Positions 2,965 to 10,866 of a stretch of 64,000 bases of DNA are shown here, one piece after another (position 1 is the first letter of the stretch; every line of letters starts with the position of its first letter). The notes beneath the pieces are model-generated. The model had not been told where the DNA came from and did not search any database. It was given only the letters and a program-made list of their open reading frames with translations. The position numbers and the translations under genes were made by a program. This DNA comes from Candidatus Eremiobacteraceae bacterium (lineage in GTDB: Bacteria; Vulcanimicrobiota; Vulcanimicrobiia; Eremiobacterales; Eremiobacteraceae). Location of the stretch: NCBI GenBank assembly GCA_035710745.1, contig DASTCX010000025.1:124001-188000 (forward strand). The letters run 5' to 3'.

Positions 2965-4293
2965 CTATCCAGAGCTGAGTTGAGCGAGCGTTTGTTGCGC
3001 CTGGACCGTTTGGAATGGGTTGAAGCGCGGATTGATCGCTAAGGCAAGCTCGAGGCGCTTTCGGGCTTCAACTCGATAGCGGCAGTGGAGCGCGATGATG
3101 CCGGCATGGTATTGCAGCTTGGCATCCTCCGTGCCGAGGCGAACCGCGCGCTCCGAATGCGCTCGCGCTTCCTCCCATTTGCCGGCGGCTGCAAGCGTCC
3201 AGGCGAGCGTGTCTTCCGCGTAGATGTCGTCGCGGCGCGCGAGGTCGCGGCGCGCTATCGCCACGGCGTCATCGGCACGAAGCCCGTGGTCGGCGTAGAA
3301 CATCGCGATGAGCCGGTCGTTCATGCCCTGCGCGTTGCCGATGCGCTCGATCGCATAGATGAGATCGAGCGTTTGCGCAGCATCGCCACGCCTGCCGAGC
3401 GCGAGCTGCGCATCGTATTCATAGCCGAGCACTTCGGGCAGCGGATAGACTTCCGCGCCTTTCGTCGCGAACGCGAGCGCATTCGTCCAGTCGCCTTTCG
3501 CCCAGTACGCCTTGGCGAGCCCATCGTAGCCGTGCCAGTAGCCCGGGAAGATCGAGAGCGATTCCTTATAGCGCGAGATAGCCGCCTGCGTATCGCCGGC
3601 TGCGAATGCGAGCTCTCCTTGACGCCAATGCGACCAGGCTCGCGTCTCGGCGGGATTGTCGACGACCTCATCCATCCGGCGTTGCACACCATCGATGATC
3701 GTGCGCGCGGACGAGAGGTGGCCGGTCAGTTCGTCGTAGCGGGCGAGCGCGATATCCCAATTCGGATCGTCGCTGCTCGGACGTGACGTCAGCGCGTCCT
3801 TCGCAGCTGAATAATCGCCGATTTCCATGTCGATGTTGGCGACCGTCGCGCGCGCCGTGAAGCTGGACGGGACGATACGCGACGCCTCTTTCGCATAGAC
3901 GAGCGCGGGCCGCATTTGATGGAAAGCGGTCAGCGCCGAGGCCATCGCCATGTCGGCGTTGATGTTGTAGCGCGGCTGGAGCGCGAGCGAGTGCTTCGCC
4001 TCGTTTTCGGCTCGGAGCAGATCGCCGACGTCCGCGCGTTCGCGATAGCGCTGGAGGTACTGTCCAGCGAGCATCGTCGCGATGATCTGGTCGCGCGAGT
4101 TGCGCTTCGTATCCGCTTCGTACGTCGCGACGAGCGCGTCGCGGTTCGCGTAGTCGGCGATGACCGGCGCGGCGGTCCAAGCCGGCGCCGGTACCACGTC
4201 GGGGGTGGATGCGCTAGCGCGCATGAACGCCGGCCATGCGACGAGCGCGGCGACGGCGATCGCCGCGACAGACCAGATGACCCGGGCGTTCAT
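2965..4293 (-). CDS. Tetratricopeptide repeat protein with N-terminal membrane anchor/signal
   Basis: A 442-residue protein starting at the ATG complementary to 4291-4293, preceded by a good AGGAAGAGG ribosome site; longer readings upstream are shadow. Residues 1-27 (VIWSVAAIAVAALVAWPAF core) form a signal or membrane anchor. The rest is helical TPR-type repeats, with A..Y...G....A signatures such as GDTQAAISRYKESLSIFP, KGDWTNALAFATKGAEVYP and GKWEEARAHSERAVRLG. It probably acts as an extracytoplasmic scaffold. It is the last gene of the DUF4331/metal-transporter set, 14 bp after the DUF4331 lipoprotein, which suggests it works with those proteins. Confidence 0.85.
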   Translation of the reverse strand: MNARVIWSVAAIAVAALVAWPAFMRASASTPDVVPAPAWTAAPVIADYANRDALVATYEADTKRNSRDQIIATMLAGQYLQRYRERADVGDLLRAENEAKHSLALQPRYNINADMAMASALTAFHQMRPALVYAKEASRIVPSSFTARATVANIDMEIGDYSAAKDALTSRPSSDDPNWDIALARYDELTGHLSSARTIIDGVQRRMDEVVDNPAETRAWSHWRQGELAFAAGDTQAAISRYKESLSIFPGYWHGYDGLAKAYWAKGDWTNALAFATKGAEVYPLPEVLGYEYDAQLALGRRGDAAQTLDLIYAIERIGNAQGMNDRLIAMFYADHGLRADDAVAIARRDLARRDDIYAEDTLAWTLAAAGKWEEARAHSERAVRLGTEDAKLQYHAGIIALHCRYRVEARKRLELALAINPRFNPFQTVQAQQTLAQLSSG

Positions 4294-4307: not shown

Positions 4308-4916
4308 TTAGTATGGGGTGTTGACGTAGGGGAAGGTCGCGCTGTAGGCTTGCGCCGTTCCGACGTTGTCGGTCGTCAGGCACGGCGACTCGTGGTGGTC
4401 GTCGGGTACGACGCCGAGCGCGGCGAGTGTGTTGCCGAAGATCGCCCCGAGCGAGATGTCTATGACGTCGTCGTTGAGCCACCGGCCGCCGAACGTGTTT
4501 CCGGTGGCGCCGCCCGTCTCGACGCCGAGATACGCGCCGCATGGCGTGTTCGGCGTGCCGCAACCCGCGACGGTCTTGCTCAGATCCGCCTGCATCTCGT
4601 CGGGGGTGAGGATCGAGGCGAGCGTCGTCGAGGTCGTCGTGTCGCGTCCTGCGTCGTTCTCCATGAACGTCACGATCGAGTCGTGGAGCAGGTTGTCTTG
4701 CGTCGGTGCCGAGCGGTTCGACTGGTCGTGGTTAGAGAAGTTCTCGAACGCCTCTTTGACGGCCGGTCGCGACAGACGTTCGATCTGGACGTACGTGGAC
4801 TTGTGCCCGGCCGCCGGCAGCGAAGACGACGAGGTCGTGCAGCCTGCCGCGCCGATCGCGAGGAGCGCGCCGAGCGCCGCTGCGCGGAGAGTGATCGATC
4901 CGTTATGCATCTTCAT
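4308..4916 (-). CDS. DUF4331 C-terminal-half lipoprotein
   Basis: A 202-residue lipoprotein with signal LRAAALGALLAIGAAGC (lipobox LAIGAAGC). The mature part, from YVQIERLSRPAVKEAFENF to the end (TFPYVNTPY), matches only the C-terminal half of the complete DUF4331 protein encoded at 8156-9358 (WTQIERLGRPAVKEAFEAY ... TFPYLNAPY). Shared blocks are AYLGVETGGATG, FGGR.LNDD.IDISLGAIFGNT and the terminal FPY.N.PY. The N-terminal half is a separate gene only 6 bp upstream. The DUF4331 family has no established function to my knowledge. The two parts probably form one domain pair outside the membrane. Confidence 0.85.
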   Translation of the reverse strand: MKMHNGSITLRAAALGALLAIGAAGCTTSSSSLPAAGHKSTYVQIERLSRPAVKEAFENFSNHDQSNRSAPTQDNLLHDSIVTFMENDAGRDTTTSTTLASILTPDEMQADLSKTVAGCGTPNTPCGAYLGVETGGATGNTFGGRWLNDDVIDISLGAIFGNTLAALGVVPDDHHESPCLTTDNVGTAQAYSATFPYVNTPY

Positions 4917-4922
4917 ATCCTC

Positions 4923-5684
4923 CTAGTTGCCGCTCGTCGTGCTCGTCGTCGCCCAGACGCCGATGTGGCCGCTGCCGAGCATCGACTTCGGGACTTCGAC
5001 GACGATGGCGATGACGTTGAACTGGTTCGAAGAGAGGAAGTCCTGCGACGCCGTCGTCGCGCAGCCGTGCGGATTGCCCGGCGCGAAGCCTTGGAATCCG
5101 ATGCCCGGATTCGGCGGTCCAGGATTCGGTTGGTTCTGATAGTCGCGATCGGGCAGGATCTGGAAGAACCGCGCGAGATCGAAGAAGAACGGGTCCTTCG
5201 CGTCACCCGCGAACACTTTGACGCCGTTCGAGAGCGGCGTGCCGGTGCGATCGTTGAACGTCACGGTCCCGACCTTGGTGACGAGCTTCGATGTCGTGCC
5301 GGTCAGCACCGGAGCCGACGGCCCGTAGACCTCGATCGACTGACCCGTACCCGAGTGCTTCGCCTTGAGCTGCAGCACCTGGTCCTCGATGCCGTCGCCG
5401 TTCGTGTCGATCTTGAGCTGATAGAGCACGGCCGGATCGAGCGCATCGGCGCCGAGGTTCGCGTGCGAGATGAGCGGGAAGACGTCCATCTGAAGCACGA
5501 CATTGCTCGAGTTGTCCGGCGCCTGATAGACGAAGACGTCGGTGATGTCGGCTCCCGGGCGGTTGACGACGGTCATCGAATCCTGATGATCGGAGCCTGC
5601 CGCCGGATGAGCCAGATAGATGAAGACCGCGCCGGACAGAGCGATGATGGTCGCCGCAACGCCGGCAAGACGCGCTGGTCTCAT
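4923..5684 (-). CDS. DUF4331 N-terminal-half protein, exported
   Basis: A 253-residue protein starting at ATG 5682-5684 behind a strong AAGGAGGAAA ribosome site. The signal segment is LAGVAATIIALSGAVFIYLA, then GSDHQDSMTVVNRPGADITDVFVY, matching the GSDHLDSPTT.ARPGADITDVYAF start of the complete homologue at 8156-9358. It continues in parallel (DPFFFDLA.FF.I.PDR; DFLSSN.FNV) and stops at GVWATTSTTSGN. That is precisely where the full-length protein carries on (NLWATTSTSSNGG) into the half encoded by the next gene. So a DUF4331 protein is divided at its inter-domain linker into two separately exported polypeptides. Confidence 0.87.
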   Translation of the reverse strand: MRPARLAGVAATIIALSGAVFIYLAHPAAGSDHQDSMTVVNRPGADITDVFVYQAPDNSSNVVLQMDVFPLISHANLGADALDPAVLYQLKIDTNGDGIEDQVLQLKAKHSGTGQSIEVYGPSAPVLTGTTSKLVTKVGTVTFNDRTGTPLSNGVKVFAGDAKDPFFFDLARFFQILPDRDYQNQPNPGPPNPGIGFQGFAPGNPHGCATTASQDFLSSNQFNVIAIVVEVPKSMLGSGHIGVWATTSTTSGN

Positions 5685-5712: not shown

Positions 5713-6540
5713 CTACGCGACGGCCGTCGGGTGAGTAGCCGCGCTCGCAACCGGTGTCGAACGCACGCTAGCGTACGTCCAGACGAAGACGGCGAGCAAC
5801 GAAGAGACGAGAATGCCGCTCACGGCGATGTCGGGCACCGGCGATCGCCAGCCGAGCGTTTGCGCCAGCTCGTAGCCGCCGACCAAGAGCGCGAGCCCCG
5901 TGACCGCCACGATCCAGACGCGAGTCGCGCGAACGGTCTCTAGAGCCGGTCGTGCGCACAGTTTGTGTACGAGCATGCTGTCAAGCGTGTCCGTGACGGC
6001 CATGCCGAGCGAGAAGATGACTCCGATGAGCGCGGCGATGATGATGCCGCCGCCGGCGGAGAACGCGAGCGCGTACGTCGCGATCTGGCTCGACGTGTCG
6101 AAGCCGAGGCCGAAGAGCAAACCGACTGGGATGGCGGCAAGCGGACTCGTCGCCGCGCGAAGGGCGCGCGGGATGAGCGCCGACTTGACGCCTGCGGGAG
6201 CCGTCGCGCCGATCTGCAGTTGGCGCAGGTTGAAAGCGGCGATCAGGAAGAGCGTCACGATGCTGACCCACGTCCCGGCCGTCTCGATGAGAGCACCATG
6301 GATGGCGATCTTGCTGCCGAGCAATCCGGCGAGCATCGCGATCGCGAGCACCATGATCGAGTGGCCGCCCGCGAACAGCGTGCCTGCGAAGCGGCTCCAC
6401 TTCGATCGCGCGCCGATCGCGTTACGCGTCAGGTTGTCGATGGCAGCGAGGTGGTCGGGATCGGCGCCGTGACGCAGCCCGAGGGCGAAGACCGTGAACG
6501 CGCTCGTCGCAAAGCCGGCCGTGAGAAGAGTCGGCGTCAT
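5713..6540 (-). CDS. NiCoT-type nickel/cobalt permease (HoxN/NixA family)
   Basis: A 275-residue integral membrane protein. The NiCoT signature H-x4-D-H is present as RHGADPDHLAAIDN (H24, D29, H30) in the first helix pair. The second signature appears as LFGLGFDTSSQIA. Hydrophobicity suggests seven or eight helices. NiCoT permeases import Ni2+ and/or Co2+ for metalloenzymes such as urease, hydrogenase or B12 enzymes, none of which is in this window. The start at 6538-6540 overlaps the upstream NicO stop (ATGA), so the two are translationally coupled. Which metal is carried is not decided by the motif. Confidence 0.85.
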   Translation of the reverse strand: MTPTLLTAGFATSAFTVFALGLRHGADPDHLAAIDNLTRNAIGARSKWSRFAGTLFAGGHSIMVLAIAMLAGLLGSKIAIHGALIETAGTWVSIVTLFLIAAFNLRQLQIGATAPAGVKSALIPRALRAATSPLAAIPVGLLFGLGFDTSSQIATYALAFSAGGGIIIAALIGVIFSLGMAVTDTLDSMLVHKLCARPALETVRATRVWIVAVTGLALLVGGYELAQTLGWRSPVPDIAVSGILVSSLLAVFVWTYASVRSTPVASAATHPTAVA

Positions 6541-8072
6541 GAAGCAGCTCCTTGTCGATGCGAGCGCGCGTGCGCATGCGAGTGGCCCGGCGCTAGCGCG
6601 AACGTCGCGACTCCGGCGAGCGCGAGCAGCGTCACGACGACCGGTGATGCTTCGATGAGCCCGGCTTGCGCGCTCTGGCCGAGCATGACCGCGCCGATGA
6701 TGGCGATGACGCAAGCGGAGACGAGCGGCGCAAATGCGGCGGCTTTGTCGAAAAGCGGTCTGCGCGAGATCCACGCCGCGCCGCGGACGAGCGCGATGCC
6801 GAGCCCGGTGAGGACCGCGGCCAGACCGATCGAGAACGCGACGACGACCGCGACGCCGTAGCCGATCTCGTGAAGCGCAAGCGCGGCGAGCATGACGACG
6901 AGCGCCGCCGGACACGGCGCGATATTTCCAGTCATCGCCGCGAGCATCACACCGCGGAACGATAGCGGCGCGTCGCCGCTCGCGCCGAGCGAATGATCGT
7001 GCGAATGATCGTGGCTGTGATGGTGATGATCGTCGTGATCATGACCGTGAGCGACGGCGCGCCGCGCTCGGACGTAACGCGCGAGACTCGACGCCCCAAG
7101 ACTCGCGACGACGAGCCCTGACGCGAACGTGATCCACGGATAGATCGCCTCGGGAACGATCCAGCGCGCCGCGAACAGAAGCGCGACGCCCAGCAGCAGC
7201 ACGCCGGCGGTGTGCGCGATCGTCAGGCCGGTCGCGAGCAGCAGCGCTTGCTTCGGCGTGGCACGCGCGCCGACGAGCGAGACCGCGAGCAGCGTCTTGC
7301 CGTGACCGGGCTCGAGCGCGTGCAAAGCGCCGAGCCCGATCGCCGCGAGGAGGGTCAAGAGTACGACGAGCGGGCTCGACGCGCCGCGTGCGAGCATGTC
7401 GGAGAGCGCGTTGGAGCGGAATTGCGACGGCTGATTCGACGGAAACGTCAGCGCGGTCGAGCTCGCGCCGGCAGTCACGCGCTCGACGCCGCCGGTGAAA
7501 TCGATGGCGACCGACGTCAGATCGCGCGGCGAGCCGAGCTGCGCGCTCGGATAGTGGCGTAACTCGTCCGTGGGCTCGGTCGCAGGCGCGACGACGACGT
7601 CCTTCCAGCCGATCCGGTCCGGAAATGAATCGTCGCTGATCGTGATGCGTGTCGGCGGCGTCGCGATCCGTGCGTGGAAATCTTCGACCCAATAGAGCGT
7701 CGGCAACCCGCCTGCCCCTGGCCGTGTGCTGACGCTTGGTTCTTGCGCCGATAGCGCGAGACGCCGGCCATCGGCGTCGACGTCGAGCGACGGCTCGATG
7801 ATGCCGATCTCATCGTGCGCCCAAGCGCGCAGCTGCGCGGCGTCCATCGATCCGTTCGATGTGCGCGCCCGCATCGTCTGGAATGTCGGGATCTCCGCCA
7901 TGTCGAGGATGTAGCGCAGATGCAGCTCGTTCGAACGGGCGTCGACCTTGACGAGATGGTTGATCGTGAAGTTGCCGAGCGGATGCGCGCTTGCGGAAGC
8001 CGCGTTGGCGGCGATCAGCGCGCCGACGCATGCGACCAGCATCCCCGTCATCCAAGCCGACCGATATCTCAC
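6537..8072 (-). CDS. NicO/RcnA-like nickel/cobalt transporter with exported N-domain and His-rich loop
   Basis: A 511-residue protein from GTG 8070-8072 with a GGAGA ribosome site. Residues 1-29 are a signal peptide, then a periplasmic domain of about 200 residues beginning HPLGNFTINHLVKV. From residue 235 come six or so membrane helices with the NicO signatures HALEPGHGK (251-259) and GNIAPCPAALVVML (382-395). A cytoplasmic-type loop at 342-360 holds 11 histidines (HGHDHDDHHHHSHDHSHDH), and the C-terminus carries HSHAHARSH. Such loops bind Ni2+, Co2+ or Zn2+. RcnA-type members export Ni/Co; others import. The direction here is unknown. Confidence 0.85.
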   Translation of the reverse strand: MRYRSAWMTGMLVACVGALIAANAASASAHPLGNFTINHLVKVDARSNELHLRYILDMAEIPTFQTMRARTSNGSMDAAQLRAWAHDEIGIIEPSLDVDADGRRLALSAQEPSVSTRPGAGGLPTLYWVEDFHARIATPPTRITISDDSFPDRIGWKDVVVAPATEPTDELRHYPSAQLGSPRDLTSVAIDFTGGVERVTAGASSTALTFPSNQPSQFRSNALSDMLARGASSPLVVLLTLLAAIGLGALHALEPGHGKTLLAVSLVGARATPKQALLLATGLTIAHTAGVLLLGVALLFAARWIVPEAIYPWITFASGLVVASLGASSLARYVRARRAVAHGHDHDDHHHHSHDHSHDHSLGASGDAPLSFRGVMLAAMTGNIAPCPAALVVMLAALALHEIGYGVAVVVAFSIGLAAVLTGLGIALVRGAAWISRRPLFDKAAAFAPLVSACVIAIIGAVMLGQSAQAGLIEASPVVVTLLALAGVATFALAPGHSHAHARSHRQGAAS

Positions 8073-8155: not shown

Positions 8156-9358
8156 CTAGTAGGGCGCGTTGAGGTACGGGAACGTCTTGCCGTAGGTCTG
8201 ATGCGGTCCCACGTGGTCGCTCTCGAGCGCCGGCGACTCTTTGCCATCGTCGGGTGCGAGTTTGAGCGCGGGGATCGTATTGCCGAAGATCGCTCCGAGC
8301 GAGATGTCGATGATGTCGTCGTTCAGACCGCGGCCGCCGAACTTGCTGCCGGTCGCGCCGCCGGTCTCCACGCCGAGATACGCGGCGGGAGCGCCGGTCT
8401 GCGACAGATCAGCCGAGATCTCGTCCGGGATGAGCACCGCCTTCAAGACATTGGCGATGGCGGGCGAGCGTCCGGCGACGGTCGTCGTGAATGTGTAGAT
8501 GTCGTTTGGAAGAAGCGGATCGTCGATCGGCGTACTTCGGTTCGTGCGATCGTGACTGTCGTACGCTTCGAACGCTTCCTTGACCGCGGGTCGTCCGAGC
8601 CGCTCGATCTGCGTCCACGGACCGCCGTTCGAGCTCGTGCTTGTCGTCGCCCATAGATTGATCTTGCCGGGCGAACCGCCGTCGGGCGCGAGCATCGTGC
8701 GCGGCAGCTCGACGACGAGCGACAGCACGTTGAACTTGTTCGACGACAAGAAGTCGACACCGGGATTGTTGAAGCCGGTCGCGGTGGGCGCGGGCGCCTT
8801 GGCGCCCGGCGCGTGGCCGGCGCGATCGGGGATGATCTTGAAGAACTGCGCGAGATCGAAGAAGAACGGGTCCTTGCGCGGTCCGGCGAAGATCTTCATG
8901 CCGTCGTCGAGCGTCGCAGGCTTATCGTAGGCGATGCTACCGCTCTTCGTGACCCACATCGAAGTCGTGCCGGTCTGCGACGGCTTCGCCGGACCGTAGA
9001 CGTCGATCTTCTGGTCGGCGCCCATACCTTCGGCCTTGAACTGGATGACCTGATCCTCGACGTGATCGCCCGTGTTGTCGATCTTCAACTGGTACATGAC
9101 GCCGGGATCGAAGAACGTCGAAGGACCCTGACCGGCGGGGATGACGGGATGCACGTCCATGACGAGCACGACGTTCGAATCGTTGTCTGGAGCTGGAAAT
9201 GCGTAGACGTCGGTGATGTCCGCACCTGGGCGAGCAGCCGTCGTCGGGGAATCGAGATGATCGGACCCGCGCGACGCGTGCGCCCCGTACAGGGTCAACG
9301 CGCCCACGAGAAGTGCGACCGCCGCCGCTGCGGCGACGCCCATGAGTCGCTGCGTCAA
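8156..9358 (-). CDS. DUF4331 protein, full length, exported
   Basis: A 400-residue protein. The start is the TTG complementary to 9356-9358, nine bases after a GGAGG site; ATG 9341-9343 is a weaker alternative. Signal segment VAAAAAVALLVGALTLYGA, then GSDHLDSPTTAARPGADITD. It contains both halves that are separate genes at 4308-5684. I know no biochemical function for DUF4331; the many Asp/Asn and GADITD / NDDIIDIS motifs look like a repeated beta scaffold that could bind metal, which is inference. It is first in the operon, 83 bp ahead of the NicO gene and divergent from the sigma factor. Confidence 0.87.
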   Translation of the reverse strand: MTQRLMGVAAAAAVALLVGALTLYGAHASRGSDHLDSPTTAARPGADITDVYAFPAPDNDSNVVLVMDVHPVIPAGQGPSTFFDPGVMYQLKIDNTGDHVEDQVIQFKAEGMGADQKIDVYGPAKPSQTGTTSMWVTKSGSIAYDKPATLDDGMKIFAGPRKDPFFFDLAQFFKIIPDRAGHAPGAKAPAPTATGFNNPGVDFLSSNKFNVLSLVVELPRTMLAPDGGSPGKINLWATTSTSSNGGPWTQIERLGRPAVKEAFEAYDSHDRTNRSTPIDDPLLPNDIYTFTTTVAGRSPAIANVLKAVLIPDEISADLSQTGAPAAYLGVETGGATGSKFGGRGLNDDIIDISLGAIFGNTIPALKLAPDDGKESPALESDHVGPHQTYGKTFPYLNAPY

Positions 9359-9577: not shown

Positions 9578-10216
9578 ATGCTCGCCTGGCCCGTGCCGTG
9601 CACGTGGGAGGTCATGTCGAAGTTCGCGCCGCGACGGCGCGAGCAAGGCCTCGATTTTTGCGAGCGCGAATGGGCGGCGCACATGCAGGACGACGTGCTC
9701 ATGCGGCGCGTGACGGCCAGCGATCACGACGCGTTCGCGGCGCTATATGACCGGCACGCGGCGCTCGTCTACGGTATCGCGCGGCGGATGCTCTCGGATA
9801 CGGCGCAGGCGGAAGACGTCGCGCAGTCGGTCTTCCTCCAGTTGTGGGTGCGCCCCGAGCTCTACCGCGGCGGCAATCTCGCCGCGTGGCTCGCACGAGT
9901 CGCTCGCAACGCGTGCATAGATATCTTACGCAGTTCGGCCGTGAGGCTGCGCGAGCCCGAGCTTCCTGCCGACGTCGAGGCTGATTCGTCGGTCGACGAA
10001 GAGGTCTTCGCAGGTTTGCGCGCGGAGGCGCTCACCGCAGCGCTCGACAGCTTGCCAACGGAACAGCGCACCGCGATCGAGCAGGCGTATTTCTCCGGCC
10101 TCTCCTATCGAGAGGTCGCGGAGCGGTCGGGCGAGCCGCTCGGAACGGTGAAGAGCCGGATCCGCATGGGCCTCAAGCGCTTGTGGGAGACATTGCGAGA
10201 GAAGGTGCCGTCGTGA
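9578..10216 (+). CDS. ECF-type RNA polymerase sigma factor
   Basis: Up to 212 residues. Region 2 is seen at HDAFAALYDRHAALVYGIARRMLSD followed by AEDVAQSVFLQLW. Region 4 is seen at ALDSLPTEQRTAIEQAYFSGLSYREVAER and GTVKSRIRMGLKRLWETL, the SigK/ECF-type HTH. The start is uncertain: ATG 9578, 9614 (GGGAGG only two bases upstream) and 9683 are all in frame, and conserved sequence begins only after residue 40. Its stop overlaps the anti-sigma start (GTGA). Being divergent from the DUF4331/metal operon, it is the obvious candidate to transcribe that operon. Confidence 0.92.
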   Translation: MLAWPVPCTWEVMSKFAPRRREQGLDFCEREWAAHMQDDVLMRRVTASDHDAFAALYDRHAALVYGIARRMLSDTAQAEDVAQSVFLQLWVRPELYRGGNLAAWLARVARNACIDILRSSAVRLREPELPADVEADSSVDEEVFAGLRAEALTAALDSLPTEQRTAIEQAYFSGLSYREVAERSGEPLGTVKSRIRMGLKRLWETLREKVPS

Positions 10217-10866
10217 TCCGCGGCCACGATGAGTCCATGCTCGAGCTCGCCGCGCTTCGCGCGATCGGCGCGCTTGAGCACGACGAAGCGGCGATCATCG
10301 ACCGTCATCTCGCCGAGTGCGAGCAGTGCCGGTCCGAGTACGCGCGCTCGAGAGCGGCAGGTGCCGCACTCGCGTTCTCGACGGCGACGCCGCCGCCGCC
10401 CGAACTTCGGCATCGAGTGCTCAGTCGCGCCGCGAGAATCACGCGCGTGCGCCGCTGGTATCAGCAGACGTCGTGGCGCGCAGCGGCAGCCGCGGCGGTC
10501 GTCGTCATCGCGGCCGGTACGTGGTTCGCGACGCACAAGCAACAGCCCGAACAGCGATGGGCCGCGCACTGCACCGCGGCTGCGGCGGCCGATTGCGGCG
10601 ATCTCGTCGCGAGCGGCGGCGTGCTCCGGCTCGACGCGCGCGGGCTTGCGACGCCGCCCTCCGGCAAGGTCTACCAGGCGTGGGTCATCCCGCCGAAGCA
10701 AAACCCGATTCCCGAGCCGACGTTCTCGGTCGATTCGAGCGGCGCCGGGACCGTCGCCATAGATGCCGCGCCCGCGAAGGGCGACATCGTCGCGGTGACG
10801 CTCGAACCTGCCGGCGGCTCCAAGCAGCCGACCTCGAAGCCGCTCATCGTCGCGACGATCCAGTGA
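10213..10866 (+). CDS. Anti-sigma factor, zinc-finger + RskA-like domain
   Basis: 217 residues from GTG 10213, coupled to the sigma gene by a GTGA overlap; an upstream in-frame ATG at 10183 would intrude into sigma. The N-terminus has the anti-sigma zinc-binding pattern HLAECEQCRSEY (H-x3-C-x2-C). One membrane helix follows (AAAAAAVVVIAAGTWF). The extracytoplasmic C-domain carries the RskA hallmark GKVYQAWVIPP with ...TFSVDSSGAGTVAI. It should hold the sigma factor at the membrane and release it on an external signal; the domain faces the same compartment as the exported DUF4331 proteins. Confidence 0.92.
   Translation: MIRGHDESMLELAALRAIGALEHDEAAIIDRHLAECEQCRSEYARSRAAGAALAFSTATPPPPELRHRVLSRAARITRVRRWYQQTSWRAAAAAAVVVIAAGTWFATHKQQPEQRWAAHCTAAAAADCGDLVASGGVLRLDARGLATPPSGKVYQAWVIPPKQNPIPEPTFSVDSSGAGTVAIDAAPAKGDIVAVTLEPAGGSKQPTSKPLIVATIQ

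Follow-up and report, generated by a model that had tools for sequence, protein, structure and literature searches.

The DUF4331 locus

The window, by which we mean the whole stretch of 64,000 nucleotides that was analysed, carries on its minus strand two adjacent genes for the two parts of a DUF4331 protein, together with a third gene in which the same domain is unbroken. The features of this region are the following:

2965..4293, minus strand: TPR protein (Pfam TPR_19/TPR_2), 14 nt past the C-half stop
4308..4916, minus strand: DUF4331 C-half, a predicted lipoprotein; 202 aa with ATG 4916 as its start, 200 aa with ATG 4910
4839..4916, minus strand: predicted lipoprotein-type signal at the head of the C-half, up to the lipobox Cys (AIGAAGC), from the translation
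4908..4925, minus strand: junction, with TAG 4923-4925 overlapping the Shine-Dalgarno sequence AGGAGG 4919-4924, and in-frame ATGs at 4916 and 4910
4923..5684, minus strand: DUF4331 N-half, 253 aa, from ATG 5684 to the stop TAG 4923-4925 (ORF and translation)
5713..6540, minus strand: NicO-family nickel/cobalt permease 1 (PF03824, 80.5 bits, above the cut-off of 27.7)
6537..8072, minus strand: NicO-family permease 2 (PF03824, 31.2 bits against the cut-off of 27.7, residues 240-363, preceded by a long N-terminal region)
8156..9358, minus strand: unsplit DUF4331 paralogue, 400 aa, TTG start, PF14224 194.8 bits, heading the gene run
9578..10216, plus strand: ECF sigma factor (Sigma70_r2/r4_2), divergent from the operon
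10183..10866, plus strand: anti-sigma factor, RskA_C (PF10099, 64.9 bits)

Read along the minus strand, the order is intact DUF4331 (9358-8156), NicO (8072-6537), NicO (6540-5713), N-half, C-half and TPR (4293-2965), and the short gaps suggest that the run from 9358 to 2965 forms one operon. The ECF sigma factor encoded at 9578-10216 is a possible regulator of this operon.

The DUF4331 profile (PF14224) spans 421 positions and has a curated cut-off of 27 bits. Both halves score above it, the N-half with 103.8 bits and a best stretch that stops at profile position 238, the C-half with 63.1 bits over positions 248-421. Neither contains the whole 421-position domain in one chain; N-half and C-half together constitute DUF4331. 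The earlier note had read the locus as a DUF4331 protein split in two genes, and the presence of both ORFs, with complementary profile ranges, bears this out.

The N-half begins with a signal peptide lacking a lipobox (...AHPAAG, followed by SDHQDS) and ends in WATTSTTSGN, just past the strand that contains WATTS. Each half does possess a ribosome site of its own, as had been claimed: AAGGAGG lies 8 nt 5′ of ATG 5684, and AGGAGG precedes the C-half, which closes with TAA 4308-4310. The junction reads TAG GAG GAT ATG AAG ATG, the stop codon overlapping the ribosome site. AGGAGG is 8 nt from ATG 4910 and only 2 nt from ATG 4916; since the former is better spaced, the spacer between the genes is more likely to be 12 nt than the 6 bp originally proposed. 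The halves share one reading frame and are parted by a single TAG (one open frame of 503 with one TAG), a circumstance on which the earlier note was silent and which could have hinted at a nonsense mutation. About 37 residues, comprising the signal peptide and lipobox, part the conserved blocks of the pair, and the intact paralogue has no counterpart of them at that place.

Split pairs, their signals and their neighbours

Among named genomes, a scan found 45 relatives, chiefly from Candidatus Eremiobacterota MAGs. PF14224 was sought group by group and matched in 10 of 14 genomes of the family, 60 of 117 of the class, 68 of 149 of the phylum, 45 of 291 genomes of Armatimonadota and 44 of 294 sampled genomes of Planctomycetota. 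The pair counts given below come from fetched stretches, which are a part of all matches, and are not a census. An hmmsearch of these stretches with the full-length profile recovered 79 distinct single-frame genes and 91 distinct split pairs, of which 55 belong to the own class, 8 to the second class of the phylum, 21 to Armatimonadota and 7 to Planctomycetota; pairs count as ‘distinct’ when their C-halves differ in the last 120 residues. One planctomycetal entry (L246), a fused gene with several stops, was removed. The search for other split cases that had been proposed as a check thus yields 90 distinct intact pairs in three phyla (63 from the window's own phylum, Candidatus Eremiobacterota/Vulcanimicrobiota, 21 from Armatimonadota and 6 from Planctomycetota), with many soil bacteria among their carriers, and the gene order is N then C in every one of them. 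Within the window's own class the distinct split pairs exceed the distinct intact genes, 55 versus 26, which is at odds with the single fission implied for this genome. In Planctomycetota the split is uncommon, with 6 intact pairs versus 34 fused genes.

No convincing lone half was found among the fetched stretches. Apparent cases (L062, the second copy in L096, L141, L182/L209, L184 and L252) are accounted for by contig ends, frame overruns or broken genes. L097 (G112:C364) alone is without such an account; its N-part stops at profile position 200 and its C-half was not found, as would result from a frameshift or truncation. L246 and L252 are broken-looking single DUF4331 genes of Planctomycetota, with several stops or a change of frame, and are not splits. 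Short divergent relatives with a weak or missing C-part and long branches also occur (L033 at 6576-7640 of G000:C6, L073, L052, L105 and L045). The stretches L036 (G003:C2) and L078 (G078:C39) are 99.99% identical over 8,501 bases in MAGs assigned to different families (f1 and f3); their source records, QHBK and QHBJ, bear similar isolate names, and this near-identity reflects either binning contamination or very recent transfer.

The C-half carries a signal with lipobox and Cys, which is the sequence criterion for bacterial lipoproteins exported by Sec and processed by signal peptidase II. A single PS51257-type pattern, for which every start codon close to the domain was allowed, was found in 87 of 90 C-halves, in none of the 90 N-halves and in one of the 79 single-gene proteins; the background rate, taken from further ORFs of these stretches that have a good ribosome site and from their best start only, was 25 of 966. 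Three C-halves escape the strict pattern. L096 and L099, which have a Cys within the box, and L247, which lacks K/R close to its start, went unmatched in an earlier search and look like lipoproteins by eye. The lipobox Cys is invariant in all 17 aligned C-halves. The lipobox that had been noted in the C-half (AIGAAGC) is real, and lipoboxes of this class recur in C-halves far above background. The claim of two separately exported products is supported as well, with an ordinary signal peptide on the N-half and a lipobox on the C-half, and it is from this sequence pattern that we infer lipidation and localisation of the latter. L095 is the sole single-chain DUF4331 protein among the 79 with an N-terminal lipobox.

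The surroundings of the pair are conserved as well. A TPR homologue lies directly downstream of the C-half in 73 of the 91 listed split pairs (four had no room for one) and after 30 of the 79 fused genes; it was not found in seven of the eight pairs from the second class of the phylum. Among the 55 split pairs of the own class, homologues of the two NicO genes are present in the fetched stretch of 44 and 37, respectively. Sigma factor homologues were seen in the stretches of 9 of these 55. The trio DUF4331-TPR-NicO, with unsplit DUF4331, also occurs on plasmids of Streptomyces (L264) and Nostoc (L262), and on a Rhizobium plasmid (L263) DUF4331 adjoins a HoxN/HupN/NixA transporter. We know of no name for this conserved module. 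On the strength of these gene neighbours, it is a reasonable guess, but no more than that, that DUF4331 helps to handle nickel or cobalt at the envelope.

The mature N-terminus probably begins with S-D-H right after the signal peptide, both in the N-half (about 5586-5594) and in the paralogue (9257-9265). An X-X-His motif at a mature N-terminus could bind Cu or Ni. The S-D-H-type pattern is present in 69 of 90 N-halves, in a scan that cut some sequences short; the His is truly absent in L100, L101, L066 and L086. Nickel or copper binding through this terminus is only a lead.

Position of the break and history of the split

For the intact paralogue in its mature form, AF2 with 68 sequences gave a model with a pLDDT of 93.4 and a pTM of 0.92, which contains the consecutive strands 207-216 (KINLWATTST) and 223-229 (WTQIERL). 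In 79 of 90 pairs the break falls after strand 207-216, the N-half ending at residues 213-218. In the remaining 11, all from Armatimonadota, it falls before this strand, with the N-half ending at 198-201, so that the WATTS strand starts the mature C-half. According to the model, then, the break sits in the loops flanking one β-strand, between consecutive strands and not between domains; the ‘domain linker’ at which the protein was first said to be split becomes, in the window, the loop between 207-216 and 223-229. Since either chain can contribute the WATTS strand, we take it that the two probably still make up a single fold.

Modelled as a read-through chain, the window pair gave a pLDDT of 88 and a pTM of 0.88, with most of the halves above 90 and residues 229-265 below 50; this is a weak test, as the alignment contains 20 single-chain homologues and would tend to copy their fold. 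The low-confidence segment 229-265 corresponds to the signal-peptide linker, modelled as disordered. A sequence search of the PDB returned no relative of DUF4331, and Foldseek with the DUF4331 model returned nothing at E ≤ 0.001. The top Foldseek rows include carbohydrate-binding-like proteins and ethylbenzene dehydrogenase gamma (4jpq, 1i82, 2ivf_C; E 0.006-0.13). VIA-align listed antibody chains at Z of about 6, a resemblance that may just represent a common arrangement.

For the phylogeny, 169 rows were aligned and trees were built without the breakpoint columns, from 121 cluster representatives (large tree) and from 66 rows (ingroup tree); L208, 0.30 filled, was excluded. Split and fused genes interleave, with at least 9 changes over the 121 representatives and 6 in the ingroup tree. 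The window pair groups with the split genes L046 and L042 (support 100/99). When the Nostoc single-chain protein was added it fell just outside the ingroup, and the number of changes remained 6. That the early breakpoint arose just once in Armatimonadota was rejected (p-AU 0.0099, a soft value as the group was named after the first tree).

The chances are even, in our estimate, that the split is ancestral within this branch and that single-chain genes such as that at 8156-9358 are re-fusions which lost the stop and the signal region. Split genes form the majority; the fused genes L081/L067/L085 are nested among split ones with starred support; and constraining the 13 fused Eremiobacterial genes to one clade leads to rejection (p-AU 0.005, likewise soft because the group was named after the first tree). 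If gaining a split costs twice as much as fusion, the ancestor is split in 837 of 1000 bootstrap trees. Against this, the ancestor is fused in 821 of 1000 if fusion costs twice as much, equal-cost parsimony on the ML tree is tied at 6 against 6, and no clear remnant of a signal peptide, sought as proof of re-fusion, was found in the fused linkers; those of L075, L077 and L095 are longer, without a lipobox. Fission and later re-fusion therefore fit equally well, and the window's intact paralogue, which had been taken as the unsplit ancestor, may not be ancestral. Single-chain DUF4331 proteins are also encoded on plasmids of Cyanobacteriota, Actinomycetota and Pseudomonadota: there were 51 matching records, of which 32 cover at least 80% of the query, and each row listed was unbroken. 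These plasmid proteins point to the fused form as the older one overall. Ancestry of the split within the branch is compatible with the explanation that we favour below.

Interpretation of the split

The shared frame of the window halves, with its single TAG, is what might be expected of one gene with an in-frame stop, whether through a sequencing or assembly error, a recent pseudogene or TAG read-through. The relatives make such an origin scarcely credible. Over the 90 pairs the frame offsets are 26/34/30, so that the in-frame TAG of the window is a matter of chance; read-through is rejected on the same figures, the halves not being kept in one frame. TAG, TAA and TGA are all used as stops between the halves. 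Spacers have a median of 12 nt and are at most 30 nt in 88 of 90 pairs: across split pairs the reading frame is free and the spacer distance is constrained. A broken gene would also leave the stretch of some 37 residues, with its lipobox and ribosome site, to be explained. Moreover, the split is common to independent MAGs, including those of the nearest relatives L046 and L042. Selection was estimated as dN/dS by NG86 on close pairs, among which many dS values are saturated and the relatives of the window pair are too distant to be listed. In the close pairs listed, every dN/dS with finite dS is at most 0.42 for the domain parts, as in L040/L041 (N 0.072, C 0.089), L063/L064 (0.084 and 0.161) and L216/L217 (0.016 and 0.014), and in most of them the leader changes more rapidly than the domains. 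Both halves of the testable split pairs are thus under purifying selection. On this ground, together with the split shared by relatives in the tree, we reject a pseudogene or assembly error, and the earlier note was right to dismiss a frameshift or sequencing error.

We consider it probable that the pair is a natural split protein, the halves of which reassemble non-covalently and are anchored by the lipidated C-half. One DUF4331 protein would be made as two separately exported chains: the N-half would cross the membrane by means of its ordinary signal peptide and then be released, while the C-half would be exported as a lipoprotein and remain anchored. Non-covalent association into a predicted heterodimer would restore the β-rich fold of the single-chain protein, and the pair would represent a membrane-tethered version of DUF4331, acting beside the NicO-type nickel/cobalt permeases and the exported TPR protein of the same operon. 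The split form is conserved in Armatimonadota as well as in two classes of the window's phylum, and has a smaller presence in Planctomycetota; on this explanation it is old, and has changed places with the single-chain form several times. Alternatively, the halves may now be independent proteins, one soluble and exported, the other a lipoprotein, that no longer assemble. Their separate signals, and hence probably separate compartments, would agree with this. We nevertheless hold it to be unlikely in view of the strict N-then-C adjacency in 90 distinct pairs, the position of the break between consecutive strands rather than domains, and the conserved DUF4331 blocks retained in both halves.

It is tempting to go further, albeit tentatively and with somewhat less than even confidence, and to regard DUF4331 as a natural, reversible split system. 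The cut would be tolerated on either side of one β-strand, the downstream half would carry a lipoprotein signal each time, converting a freely secreted protein into a two-chain membrane-anchored one, and lineages would have switched several times. Recurrent fission coupled to a lipid-anchor signal in the middle of a fold would provide a natural experiment on the relocation of a secreted protein within the cell, and the breaks would offer ready-made split sites in a fold for which a sequence search yields no solved relative. The uncharacterised DUF4331 is also tied to a conserved DUF4331-TPR-NicO cluster that ranges from Streptomyces and Nostoc to candidate phyla, and through this link the function of the family becomes accessible to testing. 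A search of the literature outside subscription papers returned no paper on DUF4331 or PF14224, whereas the control DUF4397 did return papers; among the papers retrieved on gene fission, lipoproteins and signal peptides, none concerned DUF4331 by its title or the start of its abstract.

Among known proteins, the single-chain PF14224 protein of Nostoc sp. MS1 (WP_224096029.1) shares 40% identity with the intact paralogue of the window over 92% of its length and is likewise followed by TPR and NicO-type genes; unlike the window pair, it is one chain, without a second signal or lipobox in mid-protein. The Streptomyces anulatus plasmid NZ_CP109253.1 has the same three kinds of gene, DUF4331, TPR and NicO, in a row, but its DUF4331 protein is unsplit and 27.7% identical. 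In natural gene fissions and engineered split proteins, a fold is cut in a surface loop and the parts reassemble. The DUF4331 pair would resemble such complementation pairs in its surface-loop cut and reassembling parts, and differs from them in that each half has its own export signal, that the lipid-anchor signal is found on the C-half only, and that there are two break positions.
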